Positions 30,256-47,049 of a DNA stretch of 64,000 bases are shown here, in pieces. The stretch comes from Azospirillum baldaniorum (GTDB lineage: Bacteria; Pseudomonadota; Alphaproteobacteria; Azospirillales; Azospirillaceae). The notes beneath the pieces were generated by a model. The model worked only from the letters and a program-made list of their open reading frames with translations. It was not told the origin of the DNA and ran no database searches. Positions within the stretch are counted from its first letter, which is position 1. Each line of letters starts with the position of its first letter. A program made the position numbers and the translations under genes. The stretch covers positions 186,001 to 250,000 of the forward strand of contig NZ_CP022255.1 of NCBI RefSeq assembly GCF_003119195.2, given 5' to 3'.

Positions 30256-30473
30256 GGCGTCCCCTCTTCCCCTCGTCGGTTCGTCCGTTCAACCCGCCTC
30301 CGTAGAGTTTGGCGATGCCGATGCGCCCCGTCCAGCGCCCACCCGAGCATCGGCGGATCGATGATCCCGACCGCCGGACCTGGACCGCGCCGTTGGCGGC
30401 GACCACGGCGTTCGGGCGATGCCGTCGACGCATCTGCTGGAGGGGGCAAGAAAGTGCTTTACAAGACGAGGAA

Positions 30474-30479
30474 TATAAT
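30474..30479 (+). promoter_or_regulatory. Candidate -10 element for the tail operon
   Basis: TATAAT matches the sigma-70 -10 consensus exactly, which stands out in GC-rich DNA. No good -35 hexamer lies 16-18 bases upstream (AAAGTG at 30451-30456), and TTTACA at 30458 is too close. It could rely on an activator. It is the only promoter-like element I see before the tail genes. Confidence 0.35.
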
Positions 30480-30694
30480 CCAATCTGTAGGAGACAATGC
30501 GTTACCCGCGCCCGCCCGGCTCCGCCGCGGCGGGCGTCGTTGTTTTGATCGTGTGTCTCCTCGCCGGGGTGAATCCCATGTTCCCACCGGCGGAGGAACC
30601 CAAGGACCTGGGCGTTCCCTTTGCCCCATCGGGCGAACCGGAACGGCACGATCCCAACGGAGGGACCGTTCCACGACCGGTCCCATCCGCCGCC

Positions 30695-30718
30695 AAGCCG
30701 CCTTCGGGCGGCTTTTTT
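30695..30718 (+). terminator. Intrinsic terminator immediately upstream of the tail-tube gene
   Basis: GCCGCC and GGCGGC pair around a TTCG tetraloop and are followed by six T residues, a textbook Rho-independent terminator. It lies only 25 bases before the tail-tube ATG and downstream of the candidate promoter, so transcription from that promoter would need read-through or antitermination. Its 3' half plus CATG resembles the element at 46759-46782. Confidence 0.75.
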
Positions 30719-30742
30719 CATGGCCGAAAGGAGCCGTTCAAC

Positions 30743-32221
30743 ATGACCAGTTCGAACCGGGTGCGCCTCGCCGGTGTCCTCGAAGCGGTGCCCGGCACCA
30801 CCCCCGTCACCCCGCGCCTGCGCCAGCAGCGGGTGACCTCGATCGGCCTGACCTACAAGACCGATTATGAGGAATCCGGGGAACTGCGCGACGACCGCAT
30901 GAACGCCGATCCGCTGAGCGTCGGCCAGAGCAACGGCGGTCAGATCGGCATCGAATGGCATTATCCGGTGCCGGGCAGCCTCCTCGACTCCGAGATCGTC
31001 AGCGCCTTCTGCGCCGATTGGGTGAACACGCCGTTCCGTGACAACGACGGCCTGCCGGCGTCGGCGGTGACCTCGGTGAGCGCCGATGCGCAGGTCGTCG
31101 CCATGACCGACGGCCCGGCCTTCGCGGCGGGCCATCTGGTGCGCTTCACCGGCTTCGAGGCCGCCAACAACGGGGTGCGCAAGGTAACCGCCGGCTCCGC
31201 CACCGCTCCGGCCTTCGCGGGTGGCGGCCTGCTGGACGAGGCCGCTCCGGGAGCCGCCGCGCGGCTGAAGGTGGTGGGGTTCGAAGGAGCCTCCGGAGAT
31301 CTCGCCACGACGCTGACCGGGCTCGGGTCCACCGCTCTCGACTTCACCACGCTGGGCCTGTCGGTCGGCCAGTGGATCAAGATCGGCGGGACGACCGACG
31401 CCTACCGTTACGGCACGGCGGTGTGCAACGCCTGGGTCCGCATCGTCGGCATCGCGCCGCATGAGCTGGCCCTGGACAACCGGCCGGCCGGCTGGGCGGT
31501 CGATGCCGGCGCCGACAAGACGATCCGCGTCTGGCACGGGGACGTCATCAAGAACGGGTCGCTGGTGCGTTCGGTGACGCTGGAGCGCGGCTTCCTGGAG
31601 CAGAACCCGCCGAGCTTCATCGCCCAGACCGGCATGCGGGTGAACAGCCTGGAATTCGGCGGCGAAGCGAAGAAGCCGGCGACCGGGACGGTGGCCTTCA
31701 TGGGCATGAAGGGCGGCTCGTCCGGCGTCGCGCTCGACGTTGCGCCGGCCGACGCTCCGGACATGGTCGACTATCCGGCGATGGCCTTCTCCGCGAACTG
31801 CGGCCGGATCGGCGTCGGCGGAGCGGCGCTGGGCAATCCCGACTGGGCCCGCGCCATCAAGTTCACGATCACCAACAACCTGAGCACCCGCGACGCGCTG
31901 TCCGACGGCGACGGAACCGCCCCGGCGGCGGTGGCGATCCGCGACGGCGCCTGCGACGTGAAGGTGGAGCTGGACACCTATTTCGGGTCCCGTGCCCTGC
32001 TGTCACGGATCGAGTCCGGCGAGAAGATCGGCGTCAACTGCCGCCTGCAGAAATGCGGCCGGGCGATGATCTGGGAGTCGCCGCGCCTCACCGCCCGTGA
32101 GGGCGATCCGGGCGTCGGCGGCAAGAGCCAGGACGTCACGCTGCCGGCGCAGCTGACCGCCTCGCGCGATCCGCTGACCAACGCGCAGCTGATCCTGAAC
32201 CGGATCGAATTCTTCCAGTAA
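30743..32221 (+). CDS. Phage tail tube (major tail) protein
   Basis: A 492-residue protein read as the major tail tube subunit of a siphovirus-like tail. The N-terminal part (RLAGVLEAVPGTTPVTPR, then DYEESGELRDDRM) and the later VTLERGFLEQNPPSF with FGGEAKK are features of the phage tail tube family that includes larger, domain-inserted tube proteins; position before the chaperone pair and tape measure supports this. Extra Ig-like or OB-like insertions probably occupy residues ~110-250. The ATG at 30743 has AAAGGAG upstream. An in-frame ATG at 30497 would add 82 residues with a hydrophobic segment and span a terminator, so I reject it as the main start. Confidence 0.78.
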   Translation: MTSSNRVRLAGVLEAVPGTTPVTPRLRQQRVTSIGLTYKTDYEESGELRDDRMNADPLSVGQSNGGQIGIEWHYPVPGSLLDSEIVSAFCADWVNTPFRDNDGLPASAVTSVSADAQVVAMTDGPAFAAGHLVRFTGFEAANNGVRKVTAGSATAPAFAGGGLLDEAAPGAAARLKVVGFEGASGDLATTLTGLGSTALDFTTLGLSVGQWIKIGGTTDAYRYGTAVCNAWVRIVGIAPHELALDNRPAGWAVDAGADKTIRVWHGDVIKNGSLVRSVTLERGFLEQNPPSFIAQTGMRVNSLEFGGEAKKPATGTVAFMGMKGGSSGVALDVAPADAPDMVDYPAMAFSANCGRIGVGGAALGNPDWARAIKFTITNNLSTRDALSDGDGTAPAAVAIRDGACDVKVELDTYFGSRALLSRIESGEKIGVNCRLQKCGRAMIWESPRLTAREGDPGVGGKSQDVTLPAQLTASRDPLTNAQLILNRIEFFQ

Positions 32222-32272
32222 CCGGCATCCCGGCGACCAACGGGAACGAGGCTGCCCCACCGGGCGGCAGAC

Positions 32273-32286
32273 GGTTCGCGCGAACC
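32273..32286. repeat. 14-base perfect palindrome in the tail operon
   Basis: GGTTCGCGCGAACC is a perfect palindrome in the 136-base gap between the tail-tube and chaperone genes. GCGGGCG and CGCCCGC follow at about 32290-32315 and can form a second hairpin without a T run. It may be an operator or an mRNA stability element setting the high tube-to-chaperone ratio; function is unknown. Confidence 0.4.
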
Positions 32287-32357
32287 GGGGCGGGCGTTTG
32301 GTCGGCGCCCGCCCGCTTCCGCGCATCCCGACCAACGACCAAGCACGAGAGACGCTC

Positions 32358-32810
32358 ATGACCTTCGAACATGTTTCGCACGGCCTGCCGGCCGCCGCCC
32401 CGCAGACCGACGACCTCGGCGACCTGCTGGTGGATGAGCGCGTCGCGCGCGACGGCGTGTGGATCACCCCGGACCCCGACCGCAGCCTGCGCATCAGGAC
32501 GAAGGGCCTGCCGGACGCCTACTACGACGCCCAGGCCCGACAGCAGCGCCAGGCGGCCAAGGGCTTCAACGGCGACACCAACCGGTTGCCGGTATCGCAC
32601 AAGCGCCGGATCAACGCCCGCTGCCTGATCGACCACAGCCTGGTCGACGTGGAGGGTTGCGTCATCGGCGGCCGCGAGCTGCCCTTCGCCGAATTCTGCG
32701 ACCTGATCCTGGAGCCGCGCGGCGCCAGGCTGCTCGACCTCGCCTTCGGTGCGGCCACCACGGCGCAGGATGGCAAGGCCGAGGAGTTGGAGGCCGCCCG
32801 GGGAAACTGA
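32358..32810 (+). CDS. Tail assembly chaperone, G-like, frame-0 product
   Basis: A 150-residue protein between the tube and tape-measure genes, the position of lambda G. No domain is recognised with certainty from sequence alone; the call rests on gene order and on the canonical -1 slippery heptamer GGGAAAC located three codons from its end. In lambda, gpG coats the tape measure and the rarer frameshifted gpGT recruits tube subunits. The ATG at 32358 is preceded by GAGAGA; the frame opens at 32298 but without a ribosome site. The protein is rich in Asp/Arg and lacks membrane segments. Confidence 0.72.
   Translation: MTFEHVSHGLPAAAPQTDDLGDLLVDERVARDGVWITPDPDRSLRIRTKGLPDAYYDAQARQQRQAAKGFNGDTNRLPVSHKRRINARCLIDHSLVDVEGCVIGGRELPFAEFCDLILEPRGARLLDLAFGAATTAQDGKAEELEAARGN
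32801..32807 (+). promoter_or_regulatory. Programmed -1 ribosomal frameshift site (G GGA AAC)
   Basis: In the frame of the upstream gene the bases read G-GGA-AAC-TGA, an exact X-XXY-YYZ heptamer directly before the stop codon. A -1 slip continues at CTG (32807) into an open frame to 33205. CCGC (32811-32814) and GCGG (32821-32824) can form a small stem 4 bases downstream. Lambda uses GGGAAAG at the same place in G-T. Confidence 0.8.
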
Positions 32811-33205
32811 CCGCGGCGCTGCGGGACTGGCTCGACCGGCGGGCCGAGACCGACGACCTGCTGGACGAGCTGATGGATGAGGATCCGGACGCCGTGGCGA
32901 TCGTCGCGGCGCGCCGGGCCGGGCTCGGGGAGGCGGTGGAGGTCGAGCCCTGGTGCCGATGGGTCTGGCGCGCGTGGCACGACCTTGCCGACGACCGGCA
33001 TTGGCGGCCGGGCGGACTCGGTCCGGCCATGCCCTGCCGGATTCCCTGGTCGGTGGTGACGGCCTACGCCGACCGCAACGCCGTCGACGCCGACCTCCTG
33101 CGGACGCTGCTCCATCACATGGACGAGCTGTACCTCGCCTGGTGGGCCGAGACGTCCAGGCAGAGCGCCGCCCAGACCGGCGGCGAGGCCGGGGAGGGAG
33201 CGTGA
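32807..33205 (+). CDS. Tail assembly chaperone, T-like extension made by -1 frameshift
   Basis: A 132-residue extension in the -1 frame relative to the preceding gene. It has no convincing own start: the first ATG in frame is at 32873, inside the sequence and without a ribosome site. Frameshifting would give a 282-residue fusion (150 + 132). The extension is acidic then aromatic-rich (WCRWVWRAWHDLADD; HHMDELYLAWWAE), similar in character to phage tail chaperone second domains, and it lies directly before the tape measure. Expected stoichiometry is low compared with the frame-0 product. Confidence 0.7.
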   Translation: MTAALRDWLDRRAETDDLLDELMDEDPDAVAIVAARRAGLGEAVEVEPWCRWVWRAWHDLADDRHWRPGGLGPAMPCRIPWSVVTAYADRNAVDADLLRTLLHHMDELYLAWWAETSRQSAAQTGGEAGEGA

Positions 33206-33291
33206 GCAACGCTCCCTCCGTCCTGCCCGCCACGCCGCCCCACCGGCGGATTCGTCCGCCCTGATCATCACCTCTCGCCGCTGAGGCAGCC

Positions 33292-36200
33292 ATGGCAGCA
33301 GAACAGCTGGTCGTCGGCTACGACGACTGGATATCCACCACCGTCCGCGCGACCAAATCCGGTGAGCAGCTTGCCCGCCAGTACGGGGATGTCGAACGGC
33401 TCACGACCAAGGTGACGGCGATCACCAGCCGCTTCGCGGATGAACTCACCAATCTGGAAGCCAGCGAACACGCGCTGGTCGACAAGGAACGGCTTCGCGC
33501 GGCCATCCTGTCCCAGCAGGACGCCGCCGTCCGGAAGGCCACCGCCGCGCACGAGCGGTGGGTGGCCGGCATGCGGGCGGCGGAAGCCGCCGCCGGCGCC
33601 CAGGCGGCCAGCACCGCCACCGCGACGGCCTCCGCCGGGTCCTGGGCCGGTGCGATGGCAAAGATTCATGAGAGCGCCGCACAGGCCGCCGCGAATCTCA
33701 ACGGTCCGGCCTTCGAGGCGCTGTCCGGCCGGATCGGGGACCTGACCAAGGCGCAGGGCTCCACGGGTTCTCTTCACACCGCTGCGGCGCGGCAATCGGC
33801 GCCGGTGCAAACCAGTTCCGCCGGCGAAAAACGCGACGTCCCGGTTGCCGCCGCCGCCAAACCGGCAGCCGCCAATGATTCGTCGGCCGACCCGAAGAAA
33901 GCCGAGGAAACAATTAAGGAAGCGCGGAAGGCGCTAACCGATATTCTGCAGAAGACATTCGACAGCTTGGGCGAAGCCCTGGTGAAAGTGTTCGTCACCG
34001 GCAAGAATGCGGCAGTGGATTGGGGCAAATCCACGAAGGCCATCATCGGTGAACTCGCCACCGATCTGATCAAGATGGCGGCTATCCAACCGTTGAAAAA
34101 CGTGATCTTCGGAACCAGTGGTCCCACGCTGTGGGATGCCTTCAGAACATCGAAAGACGATGCGGCCAAGAACGACAATAACGTGACTGGGCAGGCTTCC
34201 TCCATGGCAACCAATTGGGCTGGGGGGAAAGCGCTGTCATGGGCAGGAGATAAATTGGGACTGGGAGGCACCAGTGGTAGCATTGCTGGGGCAATTGATG
34301 GCTGGGCCCTCTCCAATCTGGGTATTGGGCAGCTGACTACCGGTTCTAACGGCATGCTGGTTGGGGGTGGAGCAACCAGTTCTACAGTACCATCATCGCC
34401 ATTGGTAGCAGGCACAGGCCTGACCAGCTATCTAGGGGCGGCCGGCGCTGGTGCGGCAGCGGGCGGCCTCGTCGGCGGTTGGGCCGGGAGCCAAAGCAAC
34501 AGCAAGGCTGTCGGCGGCGCTACGGGGGCGGTGGCGGGCGCAGCAGCCTCCTATGGGATTGGCTCGCTTATGTCCATCGGTGCGATGACCGGTCCCTGGG
34601 GCCTTGCCATCGCGGCGGTGGCAGGGGCGGTCATGGGGATGGTGGGCACCCAAAAAGCCTCCGTCGGCCCGAACGCCGCCGCGACCTTGCGGGTCGAGAA
34701 CGGCAAGCTGGTCCGGATCGGCGCCGACGCGGACAACGGCGGGAGCACCGACCGTGTGGTGGCGGTGACCGATGCCGTGGCCACCGCGGTCAACGCCATG
34801 ACCCAGCTCGGCGTGCAGGTCCGCGAAGGGCAGCAATTTTTCTTCGTGGACGGTGGCCCCAAGGTCGTGAACAACGGCAAAAGGGCCCAGACACCCGAAG
34901 CGTTCATCCGCGAGGTGATGGGCACGCTGACCGCCGATGGGCTGGTCGGCAAGGCCCTGGCGTCCGATGCCGCGCAGAACAGCGGCGATCTGAACAAGAT
35001 CGTCCAGGGGCTGTCGCTGGCCAAGTCCATCGAGCAGGCGAACTCGGCACTCTCCAATTTGGACAATTCGCTGCACGCGGTCCAGAAATCGGCCTTCGCG
35101 GCGACCGCCGAGAGCCTTCAGCCGATGGTCGACCAGTTCAGGCTGGCGCAGGAGTTCGGCCTGGAAGCGGATTACGCGTCCATGGCGACCGGCCAGCTGA
35201 CCGCGATCCTGGACAACATCCGGGACCCGGTGCAATGGCAGACGGTGCAGGTGGCGGTGGCGGAACTAGACGGGCAGATGGCCGCCTTCCGCGATCAGGT
35301 GGGGAAAGTGAATCCCGCCCTGGTCGGCCTGATCAACGATGTCGCAGCCGCCGCGAAGGAGAAGATCTACGGCGATTACCGGAAGACGTTCGACGCCGGG
35401 CTGAACAGCGCCCGCGGAGCCGACTACCTGAACCAGCTGACCGACGTGCGGACCTGGTGGAACAACAATTGGGCCAACAGCCTGATGTCGGGCCGCAACC
35501 CGAACGACATGTACGCGGCCCAGGCTAAGGCGATCTTTGACGGCCTCGACGTCAACCAGCTGGGAAAGGCGGTCGAGTATTTCGCTGAGCTCGACCCGGT
35601 GATGTCCGGGCTGGCTGCCGCGGCGCGCGACATCGCCCGTCAGGATGCCATGACCGGTTTGGATCAGCGCTACCGGGCCGCCCAGGTGGCGTTGGGCCAG
35701 CTGTCGCAGGCGGAGTTCGACCGTTACCAGACCGAGCTGGAGCAGGCGCGGGAGCTGTCGGCGGTCACCGATCCGGTCGTCCGCGCCCGCCTGCAGGAGG
35801 TGCAGACTCTCGAGAAGCAGGCCCAGGCTTATGAAAAGGCGCGGCAGTCCGGAGAATCGCTCACCGACTGGCTGACCAACAAGCTGGGCACCAGCTCCGC
35901 CGGGGTCTCGGCGTCCACCGCCTACACCAACGCGCTGGGCGCGTACCAGGCGGATCTCGCGAAAGCGGCCGCCAACGACAACGACGCTCTGGGACGGATG
36001 GCCAGCACCGCCGACCGCCTGCTGACCGCCTACACCGATTATTTCGGCAGCCAGGGCGCCACGGCCTTCTGGCAGAAGATCATGGGGGAGGTCGCCAACC
36101 TTCCGGCCGTCAAATCCTACGACAGCTCCATCGTCGACGCGATCAACCGGCTTCCCCATGGCGCCGGCGGGCCGGCCACCGGCCTCACCATGGTCAACGA

Positions 36201-36498
36201 CGCCGGGCCGGAGCTGATCCGGTTGCCGACCGGCTCGATGGTGATGACCAGCCGGGCCAGCGTCGATTTCCTGCGGCGCGGCGGCGGCTCCACGACCACG
36301 ATGCCCGCCCCCGACACCGCGGTGGTGGAGACTCTGCGGCAATTGCTCCGCGCGGTCGTCTTCAACGGCGCCGACCTGACCACGGTCCTCGAAGGGCTGA
36401 AGGACAGCGGCTTGCGCCAGGAGAAGGCGCTGGCCGCGCTGCGCGGCCAGTTCAAGCGGGCCGGCGACGCCGGCACGCTGCCGGGGCGCGCGGCCTGA
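33292..36498 (+). CDS. Phage tail tape measure protein
   Basis: A 1068-residue protein that sets tail length and passes through the tube. Residues ~1-200 are helical and Ala-rich; residues ~209-273 (LTDILQKTFDSLGEALVKVFVTGKNAAVDW and following, listed in parts) match the lambda-type tape-measure C-terminal region; residues ~377-457 are a Gly/Ala-rich hydrophobic stretch (GAAGAGAAAGGLVGGWAG) that probably inserts in the target membrane; the rest is helical. Using the usual ~1.5 A per residue, the tail would be about 160 nm. Bases around 34000-34420 are clearly less GC-rich (my hand count ~53% for 34141-34260), suggesting a recombined segment. Confidence 0.87.
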   Translation: MAAEQLVVGYDDWISTTVRATKSGEQLARQYGDVERLTTKVTAITSRFADELTNLEASEHALVDKERLRAAILSQQDAAVRKATAAHERWVAGMRAAEAAAGAQAASTATATASAGSWAGAMAKIHESAAQAAANLNGPAFEALSGRIGDLTKAQGSTGSLHTAAARQSAPVQTSSAGEKRDVPVAAAAKPAAANDSSADPKKAEETIKEARKALTDILQKTFDSLGEALVKVFVTGKNAAVDWGKSTKAIIGELATDLIKMAAIQPLKNVIFGTSGPTLWDAFRTSKDDAAKNDNNVTGQASSMATNWAGGKALSWAGDKLGLGGTSGSIAGAIDGWALSNLGIGQLTTGSNGMLVGGGATSSTVPSSPLVAGTGLTSYLGAAGAGAAAGGLVGGWAGSQSNSKAVGGATGAVAGAAASYGIGSLMSIGAMTGPWGLAIAAVAGAVMGMVGTQKASVGPNAAATLRVENGKLVRIGADADNGGSTDRVVAVTDAVATAVNAMTQLGVQVREGQQFFFVDGGPKVVNNGKRAQTPEAFIREVMGTLTADGLVGKALASDAAQNSGDLNKIVQGLSLAKSIEQANSALSNLDNSLHAVQKSAFAATAESLQPMVDQFRLAQEFGLEADYASMATGQLTAILDNIRDPVQWQTVQVAVAELDGQMAAFRDQVGKVNPALVGLINDVAAAAKEKIYGDYRKTFDAGLNSARGADYLNQLTDVRTWWNNNWANSLMSGRNPNDMYAAQAKAIFDGLDVNQLGKAVEYFAELDPVMSGLAAAARDIARQDAMTGLDQRYRAAQVALGQLSQAEFDRYQTELEQARELSAVTDPVVRARLQEVQTLEKQAQAYEKARQSGESLTDWLTNKLGTSSAGVSASTAYTNALGAYQADLAKAAANDNDALGRMASTADRLLTAYTDYFGSQGATAFWQKIMGEVANLPAVKSYDSSIVDAINRLPHGAGGPATGLTMVNDAGPELIRLPTGSMVMTSRASVDFLRRGGGSTTTMPAPDTAVVETLRQLLRAVVFNGADLTTVLEGLKDSGLRQEKALAALRGQFKRAGDAGTLPGRAA

Positions 36499-38222
36499 TG
36501 CGCGTCTTCCTCGTCCGGATCGAGGAGCAGCCCTTGACCGTGACGGAACCGGCGCCGCTCGATCTGAGCGGCGTCGTCCGTCCTCCGCCCCGCGTCGAAG
36601 CGGGGCGGTCCCTGGCCATGGTCCGCGCCTTCACCCGCCGGCCGGTCTGGCGCCCCCCGGTGCCGGCCGCCGTTCCGCCGCCGTTGCGGGCCTCCGTCCG
36701 CACCACCCTCGCCACCGTCCAGGGGTACGTCATGCTCGGCGCCTCTCCCTTCGGCGCGGCTCCCTTCGGCGCCCGCCGCGACCGCCTGTCCCTCGCCATC
36801 GGAGACGTCATGCTGCGTTATGGGACCATAAATTACGTCGACCGCGACCACAGGGAGTTCGAGGATGGGCTTCGGACTCCCTCCTTCAGCCGCACGATCC
36901 TGACCGGCGGTACGGTCGGCGGCTGGGCCACCGCCAGCCTCGGCGACCTCGAACTGGACAATCTGGAGGGCGAGCGCAGCGACCTGCTGCGGCGCGTCGC
37001 CGTCGACGGGCGCCCGGTCGAGGTGCTGCAGCCGCGGCCCGACGGAACGACCGAGGTTGTCTTCGAATGCACGGCCCGGGACATCGTGCCCGGCGACGAC
37101 GACACGGTGCGCATCCGGCTGCGGGATTGGGATTATCTGCTCGACAAGCCGGCCCAGACCGCCACCTACCCGGACGACGCCCCGCCGGAAATCGCCAACC
37201 GCCGCCGGCCCTTCGGCTATGGCCCGTGCAACAACGTGACGCCGACCCGGATCGCCACGACGGCTCCGGCCTATCAGTTCAACGATGGCCCGTCGCGCGC
37301 CCTGCGGGCGGTCTATGTCGCCGGCATCCCGCAACTGCCGGCGGACCTTGCGGCTATCGATCTGGCGGCCTCGACCTTCACGCTGGCGGCGGAGCCGGCG
37401 GGCGACGTGACCTGCGATTTCGACGGTCTGGTGGTGGACGGGGTGTATCTCAACACCACCGCCCTGGTAATCGACGATCTGGCCTTCCGGCGCGGCGGGT
37501 TGCCGGCGACACGGAAATCCGTCCGCCATTTCGAGCGCTTCGCCGCTGACATGCCCGGCGAGGTGCAGCTCTACGTGTCACACGGCGAGGAGCCGACCGT
37601 CCTGTCGCTGATCCAACGCCTTCTGGCGCCTTGCGGCTGGGGGGCGTTCTCGTGGCGCGGCCAGCTCCAGGTCGGTGTCTGGAAGGTGGCGACGGGAGCC
37701 CCGCGCTGCCTGCTCTCCAAGGCCGAAGGGACGCTGATCAGCCTGCAGCCGGCCGAGCTTCCCACGGAGGTCTATCCACCGCCGTGGCGGTTGCGCGGCG
37801 GGTACGACCGCAACTGGACGCCTCAGACGGCCAGCCAGCTCAAGGGCGACGACACCCCCGGCGCGGCCGACCCCGTCGGCGGGCCGGAGCGGCGCCGCTG
37901 GCTGGCGCGTGGGCAGGAGATCGCGGAAGCGAAGGACGAGGTCACTCGCGACCGCCTCCATCTGGGCGCGCAGGATCCGGCCGTCGTGGAGACCTGCCTC
38001 GCCGACAAGATCGGCTGCGAAACCGTTCTGCAGGCGTCCCTGGCCCACTGGCTCGGCAACCGGGCCCAGTACCGGGTCGTGCCCGACACGCCTCCCTTCT
38101 TCTTCGACATCGGGGACGAGGTGGCGATCCAGTGGGACGGCCATGGCCTGGAGGGCGGCCAGATCGGCGTGGTGGCGGAAGTCGCCGAGGGCGAATGGAC
38201 CGAACTGGTTATTGAGGTGTGA
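36498..38222 (+). CDS. Tail protein of unknown function, 574 residues (baseplate/hub candidate)
   Basis: Its start overlaps the tape-measure stop (TGATG) and it precedes two other tail-tip genes, where siphovirus tails encode distal tail and hub proteins. I do not recognise a specific family. The first ~75 residues are proline-rich and basic, followed by MLGASPFGAAPFGARR at an in-frame ATG (36732) that could be the real start. The remainder looks beta-rich (DLELDNLEGERSDLLRRV; FDIGDEVAIQWDGHGLEGGQ), and the final segment resembles the domain that closes phage hub proteins. No signal peptide or membrane segment. Confidence 0.6.
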   Translation: MRVFLVRIEEQPLTVTEPAPLDLSGVVRPPPRVEAGRSLAMVRAFTRRPVWRPPVPAAVPPPLRASVRTTLATVQGYVMLGASPFGAAPFGARRDRLSLAIGDVMLRYGTINYVDRDHREFEDGLRTPSFSRTILTGGTVGGWATASLGDLELDNLEGERSDLLRRVAVDGRPVEVLQPRPDGTTEVVFECTARDIVPGDDDTVRIRLRDWDYLLDKPAQTATYPDDAPPEIANRRRPFGYGPCNNVTPTRIATTAPAYQFNDGPSRALRAVYVAGIPQLPADLAAIDLAASTFTLAAEPAGDVTCDFDGLVVDGVYLNTTALVIDDLAFRRGGLPATRKSVRHFERFAADMPGEVQLYVSHGEEPTVLSLIQRLLAPCGWGAFSWRGQLQVGVWKVATGAPRCLLSKAEGTLISLQPAELPTEVYPPPWRLRGGYDRNWTPQTASQLKGDDTPGAADPVGGPERRRWLARGQEIAEAKDEVTRDRLHLGAQDPAVVETCLADKIGCETVLQASLAHWLGNRAQYRVVPDTPPFFFDIGDEVAIQWDGHGLEGGQIGVVAEVAEGEWTELVIEV

Positions 38223-38223
38223 C

Positions 38224-39003
38224 ATGGACAACCTGACGGCACGGGTCGGCTGGATCAACCACGCCGACACCGCCACCCTGACCGCCCTCCACCCCGGACC
38301 GGACACGCTGGGTGTGGAGCGGCTGCAAATCAAGCACGTGGCCCGCTATCACGAGCAGACCGGTCCCGAACTGGCGATTCGTGCCGATCTGCACGCCGGC
38401 AAGCCGGTGGACGCGGTGGTGCTGCCTCTGGTCAACGCGGCGCCGAGCGCCACCCTGCGGGTGCGCGCGGCCGCGACGGTGGCCGATCTGTCGGCGGCCC
38501 CGCTCTACACCTACGCCGGGCCGGGGCATATCGACGACGCGCACAACTACGCCATCCATCTGCTGCCGGCGACGGTCACCGCGCGGGTGTGGGAGGTGGC
38601 CGTCACCGATCCGGACCGGGAGGTTTCGCGCGCCGGCCGGCTGGTCCTGGCGCCGCTGCATCGCTTCGCCTTCAATTTCAAGGCGAACTGGGGCGTGCGC
38701 TGGGAAGACCTGTCGGAGGAGCGCGACGGCGCCGGCGGCCAGATGTACTCCCGCGCCGGGCCACGGCGCCGCGTTCTGAGCGCGGAATTCGGCGAGATGA
38801 CCCGCCGGGAGCGCGACGAGGTCGCGCTCGAGATCGAGCGGCTGGCCGGCAAGACCGGCGACATCCTGATGGTGGCGCGGCCCAACGCCCCGAACCTTGC
38901 GCACTACACGGTGTGGGGAAAGCCGGTGGACACCGGCGGCGTCAACGAAAGCCGCCTCGGCATCTTCACCAAAACCTTCCAGATCAAAGAACGGCGGTTC
39001 TGA
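38224..39003 (+). CDS. Tail protein of unknown function, 259 residues
   Basis: A protein starting one base after the previous stop and overlapping the next start (TGATG), so it is coupled within the tail-tip cluster. It has a beta-rich N-terminal half (residues ~1-150) and a C-terminal half (RFAFNFKANWGVRWEDLSE; HYTVWGKPVDTGGVNES) that may be a distal tail or tip-attachment domain. No family is recognised with confidence. Function is inferred only from the operon position between the hub candidate and the long tail-tip/fibre protein. Confidence 0.6.
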   Translation: MDNLTARVGWINHADTATLTALHPGPDTLGVERLQIKHVARYHEQTGPELAIRADLHAGKPVDAVVLPLVNAAPSATLRVRAAATVADLSAAPLYTYAGPGHIDDAHNYAIHLLPATVTARVWEVAVTDPDREVSRAGRLVLAPLHRFAFNFKANWGVRWEDLSEERDGAGGQMYSRAGPRRRVLSAEFGEMTRRERDEVALEIERLAGKTGDILMVARPNAPNLAHYTVWGKPVDTGGVNESRLGIFTKTFQIKERRF

Positions 39004-42000
39004 TGGCCTTCGTCTATCCTGACCGCGCCTCGGAAGTCACCACCTCGACCGGTGACCAGGGCGACATCATTCTTCAGGGGCCGGAACCGTCCTTCTGGTC
39101 CTTCACCAGCCGGATGGCCGTCGGCGACGAGACCACGGTGTGCCGGGAGGATGGCCTCACCTCGGAGCTGGTCCGGGTGCGGCTGGTGGCGCCGGACCGT
39201 CTGCGCTATCTGGCGGTCTACGGCTCGTCCAACGGCGGCGCCCGCGTCGTCTGGCCGGCGGGGCAGCAGCGGGTCTACGCCACGCAGCTCGGGCGCTACG
39301 CCCTGCTGCCCCCCGACGCCGGACAGGCCGGACGGCCCGTGGTGGTGCAGCCGGACGGGACGTACGGCGCCGGGGCGCTGACCGTGCCGGTGCCGACCGG
39401 CCTGACCCTGGGCACGCTGCTCGACGCGGCTTCCGCCGGCGGGCGACCGGACGGGGCGGTGCTGATCCGCCTGGTGGTGACCTGGGACGAGGTCCCCGAT
39501 CTGGACTACGAGCTGGAGATCCGCGACGGCCTGACCACTGGCTGGCCGGGCGCAGCGTCGAATCCCGCCCTCATCCCGGCGGGCGGCGGGCGTTGCGTCG
39601 TCAACGTGGTCGGGGGCTACACCTACGGGGTACGGCTGCGTGCCCGTGCCGTCGGCGGGGTGTCCGGCTGGACGCCCGAGCAGACCATCGCGGCGACCGG
39701 CGACGACGTGCCGCCGGGGCCTCCCACGGACATGGTGGTGACCGAGGTCTATGGCGGCGCGGTGTTCATGTTCACGCCGCCCACTGACGCCGACACCCTG
39801 GAGGTCCGCTTCTACGCGGCGCCCTCCGACGACGAGACGGCCGCCGTGCTGGTCGGAGCGGGGCTGCGCCGGGTGACGCTGACCGGCCTGCCGGCGGGGA
39901 CCACCCGCTGGGTGTGGGCGGCCTCGGTGGACACCAGCGGCAACGAGGCGGAGTGGCTCTCCCTCGGCCCAGTGACCGCGCTGCTGATCGAGCCGGGCGA
40001 CCTCGCCGCGGAGTTGGGCGAGCGCATTGAACGGCTGTCCGATGTGGACCCGGCGAGCTTGGATCTCGCAGGGGAGGCCGCCCTGGAGGCGGTGCTGGCG
40101 GCACACGAGGTCCGCCTGGGGGCGCAACGGCGGCTCGCCCAGGCGATGACTGGCGTGGACGACACGATTGACGGGGTGCGCGACAGGCTGGCGGGCGTGG
40201 AGACGGGCCTTCAGCAGGAGACCACCATCCGCACTGACGAGACGGCGGCCCTGACCCAGAGCCTGACCACCCTCGGGGCCGTCGTGGAGGACAACACCGC
40301 CGCCATCCAGGCCGAGCAGACGGCGCGGGCCGACGCGTACGAGGCCCTGGCCGAGAGTGTGACTCTGGTGGCCGCCCAGGCGGGCAGCGCCCTGGCCGCT
40401 GTGCAGAGCGAGGCGCAGACCCGCGCTTCGGAGGACGAGGCGCTGTCCAGCCGCATCGACACGGTGGTTGCCGACACCGCGCACAACGCCGCCGCGATTC
40501 TGGCGGAGCAGACGGCCCGCATCAACGCCGATGGCGCCCTGGCAAACACGCTGACGTCGGTGTCCGCCCAGGCGACGCGGGCGCGCACCTTCCGGCAAGC
40601 CACCGCCCCCGCCACTCCGCAGGTGGGCGACCTGTGGTACGACACCGCCAGCAACAACTCCCCCAAGCGTTGGTCCGGGACGGGTTGGGAATCCACCGAG
40701 GACCCGCGCATCGCGGCGACCGCCGCCGTGGTGGCGGCTGAACAGACGGCCCGTGCGGACGGTGATTCCGCCCTGGCGAGCAGCATCAGCAGCGTGTCGG
40801 CGCAAGCGTCACGGTCCCGGACATTCCGGCAGAGCGCTGCGCCCGCCGCGCCACAGGTCGGCGATGTCTGGTACGACACGGCCAACGGCAACGCGGCCAA
40901 GCGTTACAACGGCACCGCGTGGGAGTTGGTGGACGACGCGCGGCTGGCCGCCAACGCCGCGGCCATCACCAGCGAGGCGACGGCGCGGGCCGATGGAGAC
41001 GCGGCGCTGACGACGCAGGTCAACACGGCGATCAGCAAGGCCGACCGGGTGCGCACGTTCCGGCAGGCCTCCGCCCCCGGCGCGCCCCAGCCGGGGGACG
41101 TGTGGTTCGACATGGCGAACAACAGCGCGCCGAAGCGCTGGTCGGGCATCGCCTGGGAGAGCGCCGAGGATCCGCGGATTGGGCAGAACACTGCGGCTAT
41201 CGCCAGCGAGGCGACGACGCGGGCGAGCGCTGATACGGCGCTCGGGCAGCGCATCGACACCGTGGTCGCCGATGTGAACACCAACGCCGCGGCCATCCAG
41301 AGCGAGGCGACGGCGCGGGCCAACGCCGATTCCGCCTTGTCGAACACGCTGACGTCGGTTTCGGCGCAAGCCACGCGGGCGCGCACGTTCCGCCAGAGCG
41401 CGGCGCCCGCAAGCCCGCAGGCGGGCGATGTCTGGTACGACACCTCGGCCAACAACGTGGCCAAGCGCTGGTCGGGGACGGCGTGGGAATCCACCGAAGA
41501 TCCGCGCATCGGGCAGAACGTGGCGGCCATCACGTCCGAGGCCACGGCGCGGGCCAACGCCGACAGCGCCCTGGCGAACACGCTGACGACGGTGCAGACC
41601 ACGGTGGGCGAGCACACCGCAACCATTCAGCAGCAGGCCCAGAGCATCGACGGTCTGTCGGCGCAGTACACCGTCAAGGTGGACGTCAATGGGTACGTCT
41701 CAGGTTTCGGCCTTGCCACGACCGCCAAGGACGGCGTGCCCTCCAGCACCTTCACTGTCCTGGCCGAAAAGTTCGAAATCACGGCGCCGGGTGGCTCGAA
41801 GATCAGCCCCTTCGTTGTTCAAAACGGCACGGTCTATCTGCGCTCTGTGGTCATCGGAACGGGCTGGATCGGTGACACCCACATCGGCCCAAACGGCATC
41901 GACGCCAAGCACCTGAAGGCCAGCAGCGTGCTAACCGACTCCATCAGGATCGGTAGCGCCAGCGGGTCCACGCTGTCCACCGTCGCCAGCAACGCCGCCA

Positions 42001-43466
42001 CCGGCGCCCAGGACCCGGCGGCCCGGATCAACGCGGGCTCCACGTCCATCAACCCTGGCAAGATCATCGTTAAGGGATCGAACACCCTCACGTCCGTGGG
42101 CGGGTGGTTCTACGGGAACACCACCGAGATTGACGGTGGGAAAATCGCTGCCGAGACCGTCACGGCCCGAGAGGTCAAGGCCCTGAGCCTCACCGGTGAC
42201 CGTGTGGCCGCCGGCACCCTGACCGTCGATAAGCTCGCCCAGTTCTCGACGGGCAACCTGCTGGCCAACAGCAGCTTCGATGCCGGCTGGGAATGCTGGA
42301 ACCGCCTGGGCTCCAACATGGGAGGAGCCCCGACCAATTGGGCGGTTAACCATCCGAGTGTGGACTGGTACCTCGCCGGGGGGAACACTCTCAGCGTGCA
42401 GCAGACGAACGGGCAGACCGGCGGGGACTGGGCCGGCTTCTACAGTCACCCGGCTTCCAACTGGGGAGGGATACCCATTGAGCCGGGGAAGCCCTACGAG
42501 TTCTCCATCTATACCGGCGCCCACAACTGCAAGGTCGATTGCTTCATCGTCTTCTACAATACCGCTGGAACCCCCGTCGGGGACTGGGCCGACGGAATTA
42601 CCCCCACGGCGAACGTCAACGATGGGGAGGCCCTGGGCGGGCGCTCCCTCGCAGGATACAAGCGGATTTGGGCTCGCGGGGTTGCCCCGGCCACCGCCGT
42701 CCAAGCTCGCCCGTTCATCCGCAAGCACAACTCCAAACCTGGGGCCACCGAGAGCTGGGGGTTCTACACGCTCCCCTTCTTCGGAGAGAGCGCCGCCAAT
42801 GCCGTCCAGCCCCAGCCCTGGCAGCCCGGCGGCGTGACCAAAATCTTCGGCGGCAACCTTGTCGCGGAGACCGTGACCTCGACCCACCTCGCGGCCGGCT
42901 CGGTCACGGCCAACAAGATCAACGCCCGGACCATCGTCGGGGACCACATGGTCGTCGGCACGATCTACGGTGACCTCATCGGCACTGCCGCGGTCACCAC
43001 CCTGAAGATCGAGGGCAACTCGGTGACGGTGCCCGTCGGGTACTACCAGCAAGACGAGATATGGATCGGCAACCTCTTCACCACCCCCAACAACTACGAT
43101 TACAACTACGGCGAGACTGGCGAAATCGACACCGATGGGTCTCCTGTGTTGATTATGGCTGCTGCCACCTGCCGGGTGGATGGCGCCCAAACGACCAACA
43201 ACAACGTGGCGGGTTGGGTGATCCGCATCATGAACGGCGTCGCCTCCAACTACCATGAGGTGACTCGGTCCAGCGTCGTCGTGCAGAGCATCGCCGTCGG
43301 CAATTCTTGGCCCGGCAATTCCGGAGCCTATGCAGCGGTTGCCGTCGACCGGCCCCCTTCTGGCATCAAAGTTAAATACCGCCTCATGTTCGCTAAGGGC
43401 TTCGCCGACGGCCCCGCCTGCTACGTCAGCAACCGGGGCGTTGCAGCCATGATGGCTCGCCGCTGA
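39003..43466 (+). CDS. Long tail-tip / receptor-binding protein with repeated modules
   Basis: A 1487-residue protein at the position of lambda gpJ. Residues ~1-170 are a tip-attachment part; ~165-320 contain two fibronectin III-like stretches (LEIRDGLTTGWPGAASNPAL; PPGPPTDMVVTEVYGGAVF); ~330-840 are long coiled-coil heptads of the AAAIASEATARAD type broken by four ~45-residue modules with GDVWYD and KRWSG (see the repeat entry); ~900-1080 resemble the DUF1983-like central region; ~1080-1290 form a jelly-roll-like carbohydrate-binding candidate (LLANSSFDAGWECWNRLG at its start); the end is a beta-rich tip. It probably contacts surface polysaccharide of a target bacterium. Confidence 0.78.
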   Translation: MAFVYPDRASEVTTSTGDQGDIILQGPEPSFWSFTSRMAVGDETTVCREDGLTSELVRVRLVAPDRLRYLAVYGSSNGGARVVWPAGQQRVYATQLGRYALLPPDAGQAGRPVVVQPDGTYGAGALTVPVPTGLTLGTLLDAASAGGRPDGAVLIRLVVTWDEVPDLDYELEIRDGLTTGWPGAASNPALIPAGGGRCVVNVVGGYTYGVRLRARAVGGVSGWTPEQTIAATGDDVPPGPPTDMVVTEVYGGAVFMFTPPTDADTLEVRFYAAPSDDETAAVLVGAGLRRVTLTGLPAGTTRWVWAASVDTSGNEAEWLSLGPVTALLIEPGDLAAELGERIERLSDVDPASLDLAGEAALEAVLAAHEVRLGAQRRLAQAMTGVDDTIDGVRDRLAGVETGLQQETTIRTDETAALTQSLTTLGAVVEDNTAAIQAEQTARADAYEALAESVTLVAAQAGSALAAVQSEAQTRASEDEALSSRIDTVVADTAHNAAAILAEQTARINADGALANTLTSVSAQATRARTFRQATAPATPQVGDLWYDTASNNSPKRWSGTGWESTEDPRIAATAAVVAAEQTARADGDSALASSISSVSAQASRSRTFRQSAAPAAPQVGDVWYDTANGNAAKRYNGTAWELVDDARLAANAAAITSEATARADGDAALTTQVNTAISKADRVRTFRQASAPGAPQPGDVWFDMANNSAPKRWSGIAWESAEDPRIGQNTAAIASEATTRASADTALGQRIDTVVADVNTNAAAIQSEATARANADSALSNTLTSVSAQATRARTFRQSAAPASPQAGDVWYDTSANNVAKRWSGTAWESTEDPRIGQNVAAITSEATARANADSALANTLTTVQTTVGEHTATIQQQAQSIDGLSAQYTVKVDVNGYVSGFGLATTAKDGVPSSTFTVLAEKFEITAPGGSKISPFVVQNGTVYLRSVVIGTGWIGDTHIGPNGIDAKHLKASSVLTDSIRIGSASGSTLSTVASNAATGAQDPAARINAGSTSINPGKIIVKGSNTLTSVGGWFYGNTTEIDGGKIAAETVTAREVKALSLTGDRVAAGTLTVDKLAQFSTGNLLANSSFDAGWECWNRLGSNMGGAPTNWAVNHPSVDWYLAGGNTLSVQQTNGQTGGDWAGFYSHPASNWGGIPIEPGKPYEFSIYTGAHNCKVDCFIVFYNTAGTPVGDWADGITPTANVNDGEALGGRSLAGYKRIWARGVAPATAVQARPFIRKHNSKPGATESWGFYTLPFFGESAANAVQPQPWQPGGVTKIFGGNLVAETVTSTHLAAGSVTANKINARTIVGDHMVVGTIYGDLIGTAAVTTLKIEGNSVTVPVGYYQQDEIWIGNLFTTPNNYDYNYGETGEIDTDGSPVLIMAAATCRVDGAQTTNNNVAGWVIRIMNGVASNYHEVTRSSVVVQSIAVGNSWPGNSGAYAAVAVDRPPSGIKVKYRLMFAKGFADGPACYVSNRGVAAMMARR
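40574..41510 (+). repeat. Four in-frame copies of a ~45-codon module in the tail-tip gene
   Basis: Copies lie at about 40574-40712, 40811-40948, 41043-41180 and 41372-41510. Each encodes RTFRQ-x(2)-AP-x(2)-PQ-x-GD-x-W followed by a [KR]W/YxG-x(2)-WE block and ends in D-[PA]-R. Spacers of 31-63 codons are coiled-coil heptads rich in EATARAD. High nucleotide similarity between copies indicates recent expansion or gene conversion. Confidence 0.85.
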
Positions 43467-43482: not shown

Positions 43483-43923
43483 ATGACTGATGAGACCCAA
43501 GGCCCCGAGCCGATGGACGAGGCCGCCGCCCCCTCTGTCGCGAGGGTCAGCCCCTACCATGCTGTCACCGGTCGCATCCTCGGCGTCTGGACGATGCCAA
43601 CCTCGCTGCTGGGTACCCAGCACGATCCCTTCTACCCCGAGGAGGTGGACGGGACGACTCACTACATCGACGTCTCCACGGGCCAGCTGTTGGAACGGCC
43701 GCCTCTGGACCTTCAGGTCTCCAAGACCGAGTTGGTGGCCGACGGCGAGGACTTCGTGGCGGTGACCGGCGTGCCTGTGGGCTGCCCGGTCATCACCCCC
43801 GCAGGGCGCTTCATAGTGGATGACGGCGTGCTGGAATTTGCCACCGTCCATGAGGGTCCCCACCGGCTGTTCTTCGACGCCTTTCCCGAGCGGCAGGGGG
43901 AGGTCATCGTCCATGCGCGTTAA
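43483..43923 (+). CDS. Small tail-fibre-associated protein, function unknown
   Basis: A 146-residue protein between the tail-tip gene and the tail-fibre chaperone. It starts 16 bases after the tip gene with GAGAGGAAAAG upstream. The sequence is acidic at the N-terminus and beta-rich later (DVSTGQLLERPPLDLQVSK; GRFIVDDGVLEFATVHEGPH). I do not recognise a family. The position is where many phages encode fibre adaptor or tip-associated proteins. The last four codons overlap the next gene's start region. Confidence 0.6.
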   Translation: MTDETQGPEPMDEAAAPSVARVSPYHAVTGRILGVWTMPTSLLGTQHDPFYPEEVDGTTHYIDVSTGQLLERPPLDLQVSKTELVADGEDFVAVTGVPVGCPVITPAGRFIVDDGVLEFATVHEGPHRLFFDAFPERQGEVIVHAR

Positions 43924-44140
43924 GGACGCCCCCACGGACTGGAGTGGCATCAACGCCGAGGTCGTCCGGCGGCTCGCCGAGACCGACCGCTACATGCAGC
44001 CCGACTTACCCCTGACCGAATCCTGCCGACAGGCCCTGGTCGCCTATCGGCAGTCGCTGCGCGGCCTCAACCACACCTACGCCCATCCCGAGGACGTGGT
44101 GTTCCCGACCCAACCCCAAATCGAGAAGGCGAGAGCATGA
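43913..44140 (+). CDS. Tail fibre assembly chaperone-like protein
   Basis: A 75-residue protein resembling the phage tail assembly chaperone (APC-type) proteins found before tail fibres: VVRRLAETDRYMQPDLPL, then ALVAYRQSLRGLNHT, fit the family pattern of R/LAxTDW-like start, D-P and YRQxLR. It starts inside the end of the previous gene with GGGGGAGG eight bases upstream, and its stop overlaps the fibre gene ATG by four bases. Such chaperones help trimerise the fibre and usually leave before infection. Confidence 0.75.
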   Translation: MRVKDAPTDWSGINAEVVRRLAETDRYMQPDLPLTESCRQALVAYRQSLRGLNHTYAHPEDVVFPTQPQIEKARA

Positions 44141-46725
44141 GCTGGTACAAAGTTGGCCGCGTAGCGGTCACGAACGGGTCCGCCGCAGTGGTGGGCACCG
44201 GCACGAAATGGGCGGGCAAGTTCAAGCCCGGCGATCTCTTCGCCCTGGCCGGCGGCGCCTTCGTCCCCTACGAAATCGTGTCGGTGGCTGACGACACCCA
44301 CCTGACCCTGGCCACGCCCTTCGCGGGGATGGGGGGTGATTACCAGCCCTACGTGGTGATCCAGAACTTCACCACGACCACCAACGCCGATCTGGCGGTG
44401 CGGGTGGGCCAGCTGCTCCAAGTCTACGAAGCGGCGGTGGCCGCCCCGGAGGAGGCGGTGGCGGCGTCCCAAGCGGCGCAGGCGAGCGCGGCGGCGGCTC
44501 TCGTCTCCAAAGAAACGGCAGCGGACAGCGCGGCGGCGGCGGCGGATCACGCCCTGTCGGCGGCAACTTCGGCGGCCCAGGCGGTGGTGGACACGACCAA
44601 CGCCATCCAGGCGGAGGCCCAGGCCCGCGTCGCTGCTGACACCGCTCTGTCCGGCGCCGTGGCGCTCAAGGCCGACAAAGCGGACACCTACACCAAGACC
44701 CAGGTCGATGGGGCGCTCCAGACCGAAGTGACCACCCGCGCCGCAGCCGACACGGCGCTGGGCAACCGCGCCACAGCGCTGGAGAGCGGCAAGGCGGACA
44801 AGTCGGCGCTGGGCACGGCGGCGGCCAGGAACGCCCCAGCCAGTGGCAACGCGGCATCGGGCGAAGTGGTGCTGGGCAGCGACAGCCGCCTTTCCGACGC
44901 CCGAGCCCCGACGGCGCACAGCGTGACCGCGCACAGCGACTGGCCGGCGGCGGTGAGCGTGACGGAGTTGGGTTGTCTCGACGGCGTAACCGGGCCGATC
45001 CAGGCCCAGATCAACGGCAAAGCCACGGTCGGCACGACGGCGGGCTCGGCCGCGGGCACGGCCTCCGCGGGCACGGCGGCCACGGCGGCCCGGTCGGACC
45101 ATGTCCATCCAATGCAGACCAGCGTATCGGGCAACGCCGGCACGGCGACCAAGCTGGCCAGCGCGGTGACCATCAACAACGTCCCCTTCGACGGCAGCGC
45201 CGGCATCACGATCAACGCGGCGGACAGCACGGCGCGGATCGCGGCCAGCGAGAAGGGCGCCGCCAACGGCGTGACGCCTCTCGGCAGCGACGGCAAGGTG
45301 CCGGCGTCCTATTTGCCGTCCTATGTGGACGACGTGCTGGAATTCTCCGCCACCGGCAACTTTCCGGCTTCCGGCGAGACCGGCAAGATCTACGTCGCCA
45401 CCGGGACCAACAAGACGTACCGCTGGTCCGGATCGGGCTACGTCGAGATATCGGCCTCGCCCGGCTCCACCGACGCGGTGCCGGAAGGAGCGGCCAATCT
45501 CTACTTCACGACGGCCCGCGCCGCCGCTGCGGCTCCCGTGAAGACCGTGGCGGGCAAGAGCGGCGATGTCGCCCTGAGCAAAGCCGATGTCGGCCTGGGC
45601 AGCGTGGACAACACCGCCGACAGCACCAAGGCGGTGGCGTCGGCGGGCAAACTGACCGCCGCGCGCACGATCACCCTGACCGGTGGTGTCACCGGCTCCG
45701 TGACCACCGACTTGTCCAGCGCCGTCAGCATCAACGCGACGGTCACACAGGATACCAACAACCGGTTCGTGACCGACACCGAGAAGGCGACTTGGAACGG
45801 CAAGGCGACGGTGGGCAGCGTGACTCCCTCGGCCCCCGGCGCGGCGGCCGTCGGCACCTCGGGGCAGGCGGCCCGTGCGGACCATGTCCACCCCGCCCAG
45901 ACGTCCGTCTCTGGCAACGCCGGCACCGCCACCAAGCTCGCCACCGCCCGGACCATCTCCCTGAGCGGCGGCGTCACGGGGACGGTGACCTTCGATGGCT
46001 CCGCCAACGTTGCCATCGCCGCAACGGTCGATCCATCCAAGCACTCCCATGCGCAGAGTATCCAAGCGCTCGATGACCAGGGGATGGGTTTCTCCGTCGA
46101 CCCAAGCAACATGCGGATTTACGTGGCTGGGAACTCAGCTGCGGACGAAGAACTCCGCTCGTATTTCGGAGCGCTGAGCCCCGAAGAAGCAGGCTGCCGG
46201 GTGGCGGGCGCCGACACCGTGGGTATGACCGGCCTCGCCCCCCTGCTCATTGGCATGCAGCAGGGCATCGGCAAGCTCGACGACCTCCAGACCTCCGACA
46301 CCTCCAGCCTTGTCAATGCGGTCAACGAGCTGAAGGCGATGCTGTCCGGCGGCGGCGGAGGCGGCGGTGTCCCTCCGGGCACCATGATGATGTACGCGGG
46401 TCTCTTCATCCCGGAAGGCTGGCTGGAGTGCGATGGGTCGGAGGTGTCACGGGACGACTACCCCGACCTGCTCGAGGCCATCTACGAGACCTGGGGGGCC
46501 GGCGATGGGTCCACCACGTTCAAGCTGCCGGACATGCGGGGCCTCTTGGCAATCGGCGCTGGGGAGCGCCCCGAGGACGGCTACGGGGTCGATTGGCGGC
46601 AGTATGGCCACGTCAGCACGGGGGACTATACGACCCAGACCACCTGGACGAGCACCATAATCCCATTCTCCGTCGAGGACAGCAGTGTGAGCGCCATCGG
46701 CATGAAGTACATCATCAAGACCTGA
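44137..46725 (+). CDS. Tail fibre with C-terminal phage collar domain
   Basis: An 862-residue fibre. The N-terminus (WYKVGRVAVTNGSAAVVGTG) is the tail-attachment type seen on many fibres; residues ~90-190 are Ala-rich coiled coil; the shaft has repeated beta-helix-like units, including two copies of HVHP-QTSVSGNAGTATKLA (near residues 325 and 587) with HxH motifs that bind metal in T4-type fibre shafts; after a seven-glycine linker the tail collar domain begins (PPGTMMMYAGLFIPEGW, CDGSEVSRDDYPDLL, FKLPDMRGL). Collar-domain fibres recognise surface glycans. It overlaps its chaperone gene by four bases. Confidence 0.85.
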   Translation: MSWYKVGRVAVTNGSAAVVGTGTKWAGKFKPGDLFALAGGAFVPYEIVSVADDTHLTLATPFAGMGGDYQPYVVIQNFTTTTNADLAVRVGQLLQVYEAAVAAPEEAVAASQAAQASAAAALVSKETAADSAAAAADHALSAATSAAQAVVDTTNAIQAEAQARVAADTALSGAVALKADKADTYTKTQVDGALQTEVTTRAAADTALGNRATALESGKADKSALGTAAARNAPASGNAASGEVVLGSDSRLSDARAPTAHSVTAHSDWPAAVSVTELGCLDGVTGPIQAQINGKATVGTTAGSAAGTASAGTAATAARSDHVHPMQTSVSGNAGTATKLASAVTINNVPFDGSAGITINAADSTARIAASEKGAANGVTPLGSDGKVPASYLPSYVDDVLEFSATGNFPASGETGKIYVATGTNKTYRWSGSGYVEISASPGSTDAVPEGAANLYFTTARAAAAAPVKTVAGKSGDVALSKADVGLGSVDNTADSTKAVASAGKLTAARTITLTGGVTGSVTTDLSSAVSINATVTQDTNNRFVTDTEKATWNGKATVGSVTPSAPGAAAVGTSGQAARADHVHPAQTSVSGNAGTATKLATARTISLSGGVTGTVTFDGSANVAIAATVDPSKHSHAQSIQALDDQGMGFSVDPSNMRIYVAGNSAADEELRSYFGALSPEEAGCRVAGADTVGMTGLAPLLIGMQQGIGKLDDLQTSDTSSLVNAVNELKAMLSGGGGGGGVPPGTMMMYAGLFIPEGWLECDGSEVSRDDYPDLLEAIYETWGAGDGSTTFKLPDMRGLLAIGAGERPEDGYGVDWRQYGHVSTGDYTTQTTWTSTIIPFSVEDSSVSAIGMKYIIKT

Positions 46726-46782: not shown

Positions 46783-46801
46783 CATGCCCGCAGGATCCGC
46801 C

Positions 46802-47047
46802 ATGACCGCTCGCACCGCCTTCGACCTTCCCGCTGGCACCGTGGCGGCCACCATTCCCCTTTGGGCCGCCGACCTGACGCTCGGCCTCCAACTCGCCACC
46901 GCCGCGCTGGGGCTGATGCTCGTGCTGGTCCGCCTCGCCCTGGCGCTCGGCGACGTCGCCAAGCGCCCGCCGGTGTGGTGGACGCGCCTGCGGGCGCGGC
47001 TCCGCGCGCGCCGGAACGATACCCGCCCCGAACCATTACAGGAGTGA
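46802..47047 (+). CDS. Holin-like small membrane protein
   Basis: An 81-residue protein with one long or two short hydrophobic helices (TVAATIPLWAADLTLGLQLA, then ATAALGLMLVLVRLALALG, about residues 16-52) and a very basic C-terminus (TRLRARLRARRN). It directly precedes the lysozyme gene, separated by two bases, the usual holin-endolysin arrangement. An in-frame ATG at 46784 would add six residues and could provide a dual start as in lambda S, which I cannot decide. No sequence family is recognised. Confidence 0.6.
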   Translation: MTARTAFDLPAGTVAATIPLWAADLTLGLQLATAALGLMLVLVRLALALGDVAKRPPVWWTRLRARLRARRNDTRPEPLQE

Positions 47048-47049
47048 CC

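Follow-up and report, generated by a model that had tools for sequence, protein, structure and literature searches.

The 64-kb stretch of Azospirillum DNA analysed here (the window) has two reading frames, G and T, placed between a tail tube gene (PF18906) and a tape-measure-like gene, with T in the −1 frame relative to G. The question raised by this locus is whether T is a gene in its own right, the remnant of a broken gene, or an extension of G that ribosomes would reach by slipping back one base at the end of G. A sequence-only reading of this DNA had favoured the last of these, pointing to a heptamer, G-GGA-AAC-TGA, at the stop of G and to a −1 frame open for 132 codons.

Two reading frames and a heptamer at their junction

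The 3′ end of G in frame 0 reads ...CGG GGA AAC TGA, and both the register and the coordinates of the heptamer (32801–32807) were verified, as was the length of the open −1 frame (32807–33205). The features of the locus are collected in Table 1. Upstream of the junction, the −1 frame is open as far as 32438; its last start-type codon (ATG, GTG or TTG) before the site is TTG 32657 and the next one is ATG 32873, with neither AGG nor GGAG in the 20 nt scanned ahead of this ATG. The G+C content by codon position revealed a frame change at the G/T junction. Within the window, GGGAAAC is present in three copies on the + strand and one on the − strand.

Table 1. Features of the G/T junction and of the surrounding tail and lysis genes (positions in the window)
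Feature	Position	Strand	Basis or description
Tail tube (major tail) protein	30740..32221	+	PF18906 Phage_tube_2, E 1.5e-29; phrog_290 ('minor tail protein'), E 1.8e-43
G-type tail assembly chaperone gene (putative)	32358..32810	+	frame 0; ATG 32358; 150 aa; TGA 32808-32810
Slippery heptamer G GGA AAC	32801..32807	+	X XXY YYZ register; abuts the frame-0 stop
T extension	32807..33205	+	−1 frame; 132 codons plus TGA 33203-33205; read as G-T fusion
Tape measure protein (likely)	33292..36498	+	PF09718 Tape_meas_lam_C, 22.7 bits (cut-off 23); 1068 aa; position; no PHROG match
Cassette genes 36498-38222 and 38221-39003	36498..39003	+	phrog_8917, E 1.4e-53; phrog_8610, E 4.4e-16; both of function unknown
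Tail tip / fibre gene	39003..43466	+	PF09327 Phage_Tail_Tip, E 2e-14
Small ORF between tail tip and fibre genes	43483..43923	+	no Pfam/PHROG match
Tail fibre gene, collar domain	44137..46725	+	PF07484 Collar, E 3.8e-20
Lysis part	46784..47892	+	small ORF 46784-47047; lysozyme 47050-47892, PF00959 Phage_lysozyme, E 1.6e-42

Family searches placed G in phrog_19222 (E 1.9e-36), which PHROG annotates as of function unknown, and gave no Pfam family match; the AlphaFold model of G had a mean pLDDT of 84. T matched phrog_3817 ('tail chaperonin', E 8.9e-11) and the C-terminal part (176–248/271) of phrog_8233 ('tail assembly chaperone', E 6e-7), and scored 26.4 bits against the Pfam family Phage_TAC_18 (PF23812), for which the curated cut-off is 27. 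When the model of T was compared with predicted viral structures using Foldseek, the best named matches were pre-tape measure and tail assembly chaperones, with a best E of 2.1e-3 at a probability of 1.00 and none at E ≤ 0.001; some of the chaperone matches were 231–277 aa long, leaving room for a G-T fusion. T is homologous to the T domains of known tail chaperones. Searches of the PDB with the folds of G and T gave no match at E ≤ 0.001, a result compatible with a chaperone fold. The best match of G, a proteasome subunit (VIA, Z 5.2 over 42 residues), was set aside as a common arrangement.

The junction among relatives

The host-family search for G covered 82 genomes and found it in 14 of them, at 18 places including the window's own. 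After strand orientation, an in-register heptamer was present at 18/18 places: GGGAAAC directly before TGA or TAA at 14, AAAAAAC before TGA at three, and, at the remaining one, GGGAAAC followed 51 nt on by the stop. A T profile search of viral contigs yielded 61 loci, and an in-register XXXAAAC behind a long frame-0 ORF was observed in 61/61, so that none of these relatives with both frames had lost the heptamer. Searching 50,697 phage records with G and T gave Azospirillum phage Cd, under two accessions, as the sole match. The 18 G places, the 61 viral loci, phage Cd and locus L022 together make 81 site records, which collapse to 56 distinct junctions and, at 90% junction identity, to 41 clusters. 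XXXAAAC was in register in 81/81 records and in 41/41 clusters, although the latter are not independent trials because of shared ancestry. The cluster sites were GGGAAAC (31), AAAAAAC (nine) and CCCAAAC (one), the second shift codon being AAC in all 41 and AAG in none, and the frame-0 stop came immediately after the site in 26 (18 TGA and eight TAA) and 18–60 nt further on in 15.

For the viral loci, the picking of sites for the 41-cluster count required AAAC. A pass without that condition returned the same kind of site in 61/61, together with extra in-register heptamers at eight loci (L040, L045, L059, L060, L061, L073, L078 and L085), all behind short upstream frames of 1–37 codons with the exception of the overlapping AAAGGGA of L040. 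Left out of the count were L019–L021 (close duplicates of loci in the count, each with GGGAAAC TGA), L023 (a 30-residue match with no heptamer and a −1 frame of only 18 codons), L105 and L108 (weak fragments with no site ahead of the match), L107 (a class-level relative, which has AAAAAAC TGA) and L100/L106 (a decayed copy in genome G040). L086–L099 and L101–L104 duplicate places that the G search had already contributed. The decayed G-T junction of G040, on contig C132, still has GGGAAAC; only 11 frame-0 codons are open upstream of it, and its T is split.

Other in-register heptamers were found at 3/4430 codon positions when 41 representative loci were examined over as many as the last 110 codons of G. 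In the same genes, with the sites excluded, GGA makes up 46/552 glycine codons (8.3%) and AAA 39/233 lysine codons (16.7%); despite this local rarity, GGA is the shift-site codon in 31 clusters and AAA in nine. The codon preceding the site encodes Glu, Ala, Val, Ser, Gln, Arg, Lys, Leu or Met, its last base always matching, and between clusters all three X positions change from G to A with the motif still intact. The heptamer is far from chance, and its nucleotides themselves appear to be under selection; the change from GGG to AAA at all X positions is the most telling single fact for selection at this level.

The same clusters bear on whether T has a start of its own. As an ordinary separate gene overlapping G, with its start at ATG 32873 or elsewhere, T could be expressed by translational coupling; in some phages the two chaperone parts are encoded by separate genes, an in-frame ATG does exist at 32873, and 11/41 clusters have a possible T-frame start near the junction (48–60 nt before or ~30 nt after the heptamer start), nearly all of these being GTG or TTG. 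However, in the stretch reaching from 60 nt ahead of the site to ~30 nt past it, the T frame contained no ATG, GTG or TTG in 30/41 clusters, and no ATG in 40/41. Furthermore, T can be aligned from its codon 1, and L1 and L5 do not vary among 37 sequences whose identity falls as low as 29%. Residues 1–21, which are upstream of ATG 32873, contain the conserved positions LTxALR...L, and residues 2–14 form a confidently predicted helix (pLDDT 93 for the block 1–10). Conservation that begins at residue 1 of the −1 product thus contradicts an independent start at 32873, in keeping with the earlier claim that T has no convincing start. A separate gene would also leave the retention of XXXAAAC unexplained, and we consider it improbable. 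T appears instead to be without a start of its own and to be conserved from the junction onwards.

Probable slippage, stimulators and selection

Taken together, these observations make it very likely that the junction is a programmed −1 ribosomal frameshift site like that of lambda G/GT. TGA 32808 would end translation for most ribosomes, which would release the 150-aa chaperone G, and a minority would move back by one base at G GGA AAC, re-pair with GGG AAA and continue for 132 codons to give a G-T fusion of ~282 aa. If the roles are those known from lambda, the tape measure protein would be bound by the G part and the tail tube subunit recruited by the T part, and therefore a set G:GT ratio would be needed in tail assembly. 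We infer the slippage, its frequency and the chaperone roles of G and T from the sequences and the analogy with lambda. Of the earlier claim that a working frameshift signal has been retained, the retention is borne out in 41/41 clusters, and it is probable that the signal works.

A fusion could also arise by slippage of the polymerase, rather than the ribosome, on the run of A and G, and AAAAAAC, with its run of at least six A, is the site in nine clusters. This route seems very improbable, as the site is GGGAAAC in 31/41 clusters and the window's own site is just G4A3, a short run for polymerase slippage.

For the ribosomal frameshift, the usual bacterial stimulators were not evident, because neither an average downstream fold nor an excess of anti-Shine–Dalgarno pairing was found. 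Over the 60 nt beginning 5 nt after the site (n=41), the mean z for predicted structure was −0.71, compared with −0.70, −0.23, −0.16 and −0.40 at the four control offsets. In 9/41 loci z was below −2, four of them with AAAAAAC (L012, L013, L014 and L044) and five with GGGAAAC (L007, L008, L010, L015 and L076); the remaining AAAAAAC loci (L045, L050, L053, L059 and L075) ranged from −1.06 to +1.92, and the window's own site had a z of −1.81 and its near relative L004 a z of +0.62. The four folding AAAAAAC loci have a strong predicted hairpin that begins ~8 nt downstream, for example GCCCTGCGC...GCGCAGGGC, and this is a possible lineage-specific stimulator. Upstream, Shine–Dalgarno pairing at −15 to −4 was strong, yet approximately as expected from amino acid sequence and codon usage (z −0.7 to +1.3); by a different measure, AGG within −17 to −6 was in excess, being present in 32/41, compared with 27.8 expected (S.D. 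1.8), which equals the highest of 300 synonymous shuffles. Frameshifting on A_AAA_AAC is described as proven in an IS cluster, with no stimulator established in that account (PMC4066793). It may be that a low level of shifting suffices, as in lambda, or that the stop behind the site or some unrecognised feature helps.

The strict use of AAC may be connected with the tRNAs of the host. In E. coli, A_AAA_AAC is described as far less shift-prone than A_AAA_AAG (PMC5009743), a point that counts against the frameshift reading. Scanning 55/69 tRNA places in the window's genome gave a single tRNA-Lys(TTT) gene and two tRNA-Lys(CTT) genes. AAG sites may slip poorly in this host, because a dedicated CUU tRNA should re-pair badly with AAA, and we propose as a hypothesis that the tRNA-Lys(CUU) genes are the reason for the absence of AAG. 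Alternatively, the C of AAC may be fixed by the leucine at residue 1 of T. The strict AAC together with the host tRNA-Lys(CUU) offers a testable tie between the tRNA set of a host and its choice of shift site.

We analysed selection on the two frames using the changes between species. The dN/dS of G was 0–0.05 (10 synonymous changes and no replacement compared with genome G008; seven and one compared with genome G039) and that of T was 0.14–0.16 (six synonymous and three replacement changes compared with G008; seven and three compared with G039), all resting on few changes. The corresponding ratios were 0.07 for a neighbouring host gene that we take to be eutB-like, 0.16–0.20 for the tube gene, 0.28–0.32 for the tape measure gene and 0.26–0.42 for 38221–39003. 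The constraint on T is therefore clear but not extreme, its ratio being above that of the eutB-like gene. On these few changes, the low dN/dS values support the view that G and T are under purifying selection and lend direct weight to the earlier claim of selection on the tail module, whose maintenance by selection would fit. That the two frames derive from one gene, split by a frameshift mutation as a prophage decayed, is scarcely credible, for although the cassette is without HK97 head genes and one copy, that of G040, is clearly decayed, the same arrangement is found in 81/81 site records, including the isolate Azospirillum phage Cd, and dN/dS is low in both frames.

The head-less cassette and comparison with known systems

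Three Azospirillum genomes carry the tail and lysis genes (window 30740–47892) at a single, collinear site. In long blocks, G008 and G039 match the window collinearly at ~92–96%, and the tip/fibre part is diverged (~41.2–44.8 kb for G008 and 40.2–46.7 kb for G039). The small ORF 43483–43923 had best matches of 79% identity in G039 and 38% in G008. ORF 46784–47047, with no Pfam or PHROG family match, is a putative holin by position. Similar terminator-like repeats, ending GGCGGCTTTTTTCATG, are located before the tail tube gene (30697–30722) and before the lysis genes (46760–46786). Elsewhere in the window, two large ORFs, at 21218–23527 (+) and within 25941–29012 (−), share the alike stretches MAKTRVAILGGGVGAL and MGKTRVLVLGGGLGGV and are presumably paralogous oxidoreductases.

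Head genes were searched for using the families PF05065 and PF04860 (HK97-type capsid and portal) and the phrog_2 terminase. Neither PF05065 nor PF04860 had a match anywhere in the window's genome (G000) or in G008, and their matches in G039 were on contigs other than that of the cassette. The phrog_2 terminase was rejected as a discriminator, since it gave matches, mostly weak, in 7/7 genomes searched; its two strong matches in G000 were likewise on contigs other than the cassette's. Two further cassettes, in G020 and G041, are ~60% identical in tube protein and G, and most of their length is collinear between the two. No capsid or portal match was found near either: in G020 the nearest one on the contig was ~64 kb away, and in G041 the contig had none. 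In G005, G006, G009 and G036 the flanks are the same, the tail genes are absent and the lysozyme gene adjoins the upstream region, which represents either loss of the tail module or an older state. In these four relatives (loci L123–L126), the upstream region (~30443–30567) stands directly before the lysozyme gene (within window 47009–47905) and the tail module is missing. In L123, ~5 kb of other ORFs, which we take to be transporter-like, separate the upstream region and lysozyme gene from the eutB-like gene.

No sheath match was obtained among the cassette ORFs in general Pfam/PHROG scans, in which no sheath family was searched for by name. A gene transfer agent was rejected: it needs an HK97-type capsid gene in the cluster, and PF05065 had no match in G000. 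With its tail and lysis genes, fixed locus and diverged tip/fibre part, the cassette resembles an F-type tailocin. Any particle made from it would probably be a tailocin rather than a phage, because tail and lysis genes are present and no head genes of the families searched were found. A literature search combining Azospirillum and tailocin returned no title or abstract with either term. The cassette, syntenic and head-less, is a candidate for a bacteriocin particle in a genus associated with plants. Tentatively, and with more doubt than confidence, one may suppose that Azospirillum has a fixed head-less F-type tailocin whose assembly depends on the G/GT frameshift, and that this uses the eukaryote-style XXXAAAC since tRNA-Lys(CUU) disables the slip on AAG.

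The founding survey of the G/GT frameshift in phages is reportedly that of Xu, Hendrix and Duda in 2004. In lambda the heptamer is GGGAAAG, the second codon being AAG (Lys), whereas here it is AAC (Asn), with a stop directly after it in 26/41 clusters. The lambda-like reading holds for the class of mechanism, and the heptamer itself is not that of lambda. As described for lambda, gpG/gpGT likewise has a −1 shift near the end of G and the T domain in the −1 frame, and the products are chaperones of the tape measure and tail tube (PMC5009743). Another close system is the gene 41 region of Azospirillum phage Cd (CU468217), in which G is 62% identical and T ~50%, with GGGAAAC followed by TAA. Phage Cd differs in having a 62-kb phage genome in which a prohead protease and a major capsid protein are annotated. 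Behind gene 41, the larger part of the T frame (L024, record ~27390–27766) is without annotation. HCTV-1 and HCTV-2, tailed viruses of haloarchaea, are described as using G_GGA_AAC and A_AAA_AAC as G-T shift sites (PMC5009743); their hosts are archaeal, and the likeness rests on the shift sites.

The setting is comparable with that of rhizoviticin from Allorhizobium vitis, also an alphaproteobacterium, which has a head-less tail-plus-lysis region and is, according to its abstract, the first F-type tailocin reported in Alphaproteobacteria (PMC10811719). The words frameshift and chaperone are absent from the main text of that paper (PMC10811719). Rhizoviticin has, in the account given there, an early region with replication genes, an integrase remnant and killing activity (PMC10811719), whereas the Azospirillum cassette is read from its gene content. 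The present analysis adds a well-supported alphaproteobacterial family of G/GT frameshifts, one that annotation can miss, as with the T frame of phage Cd. Set beside these systems, the mechanism is an ordinary one, and what is unusual is mainly the strict AAC codon and the head-less setting.
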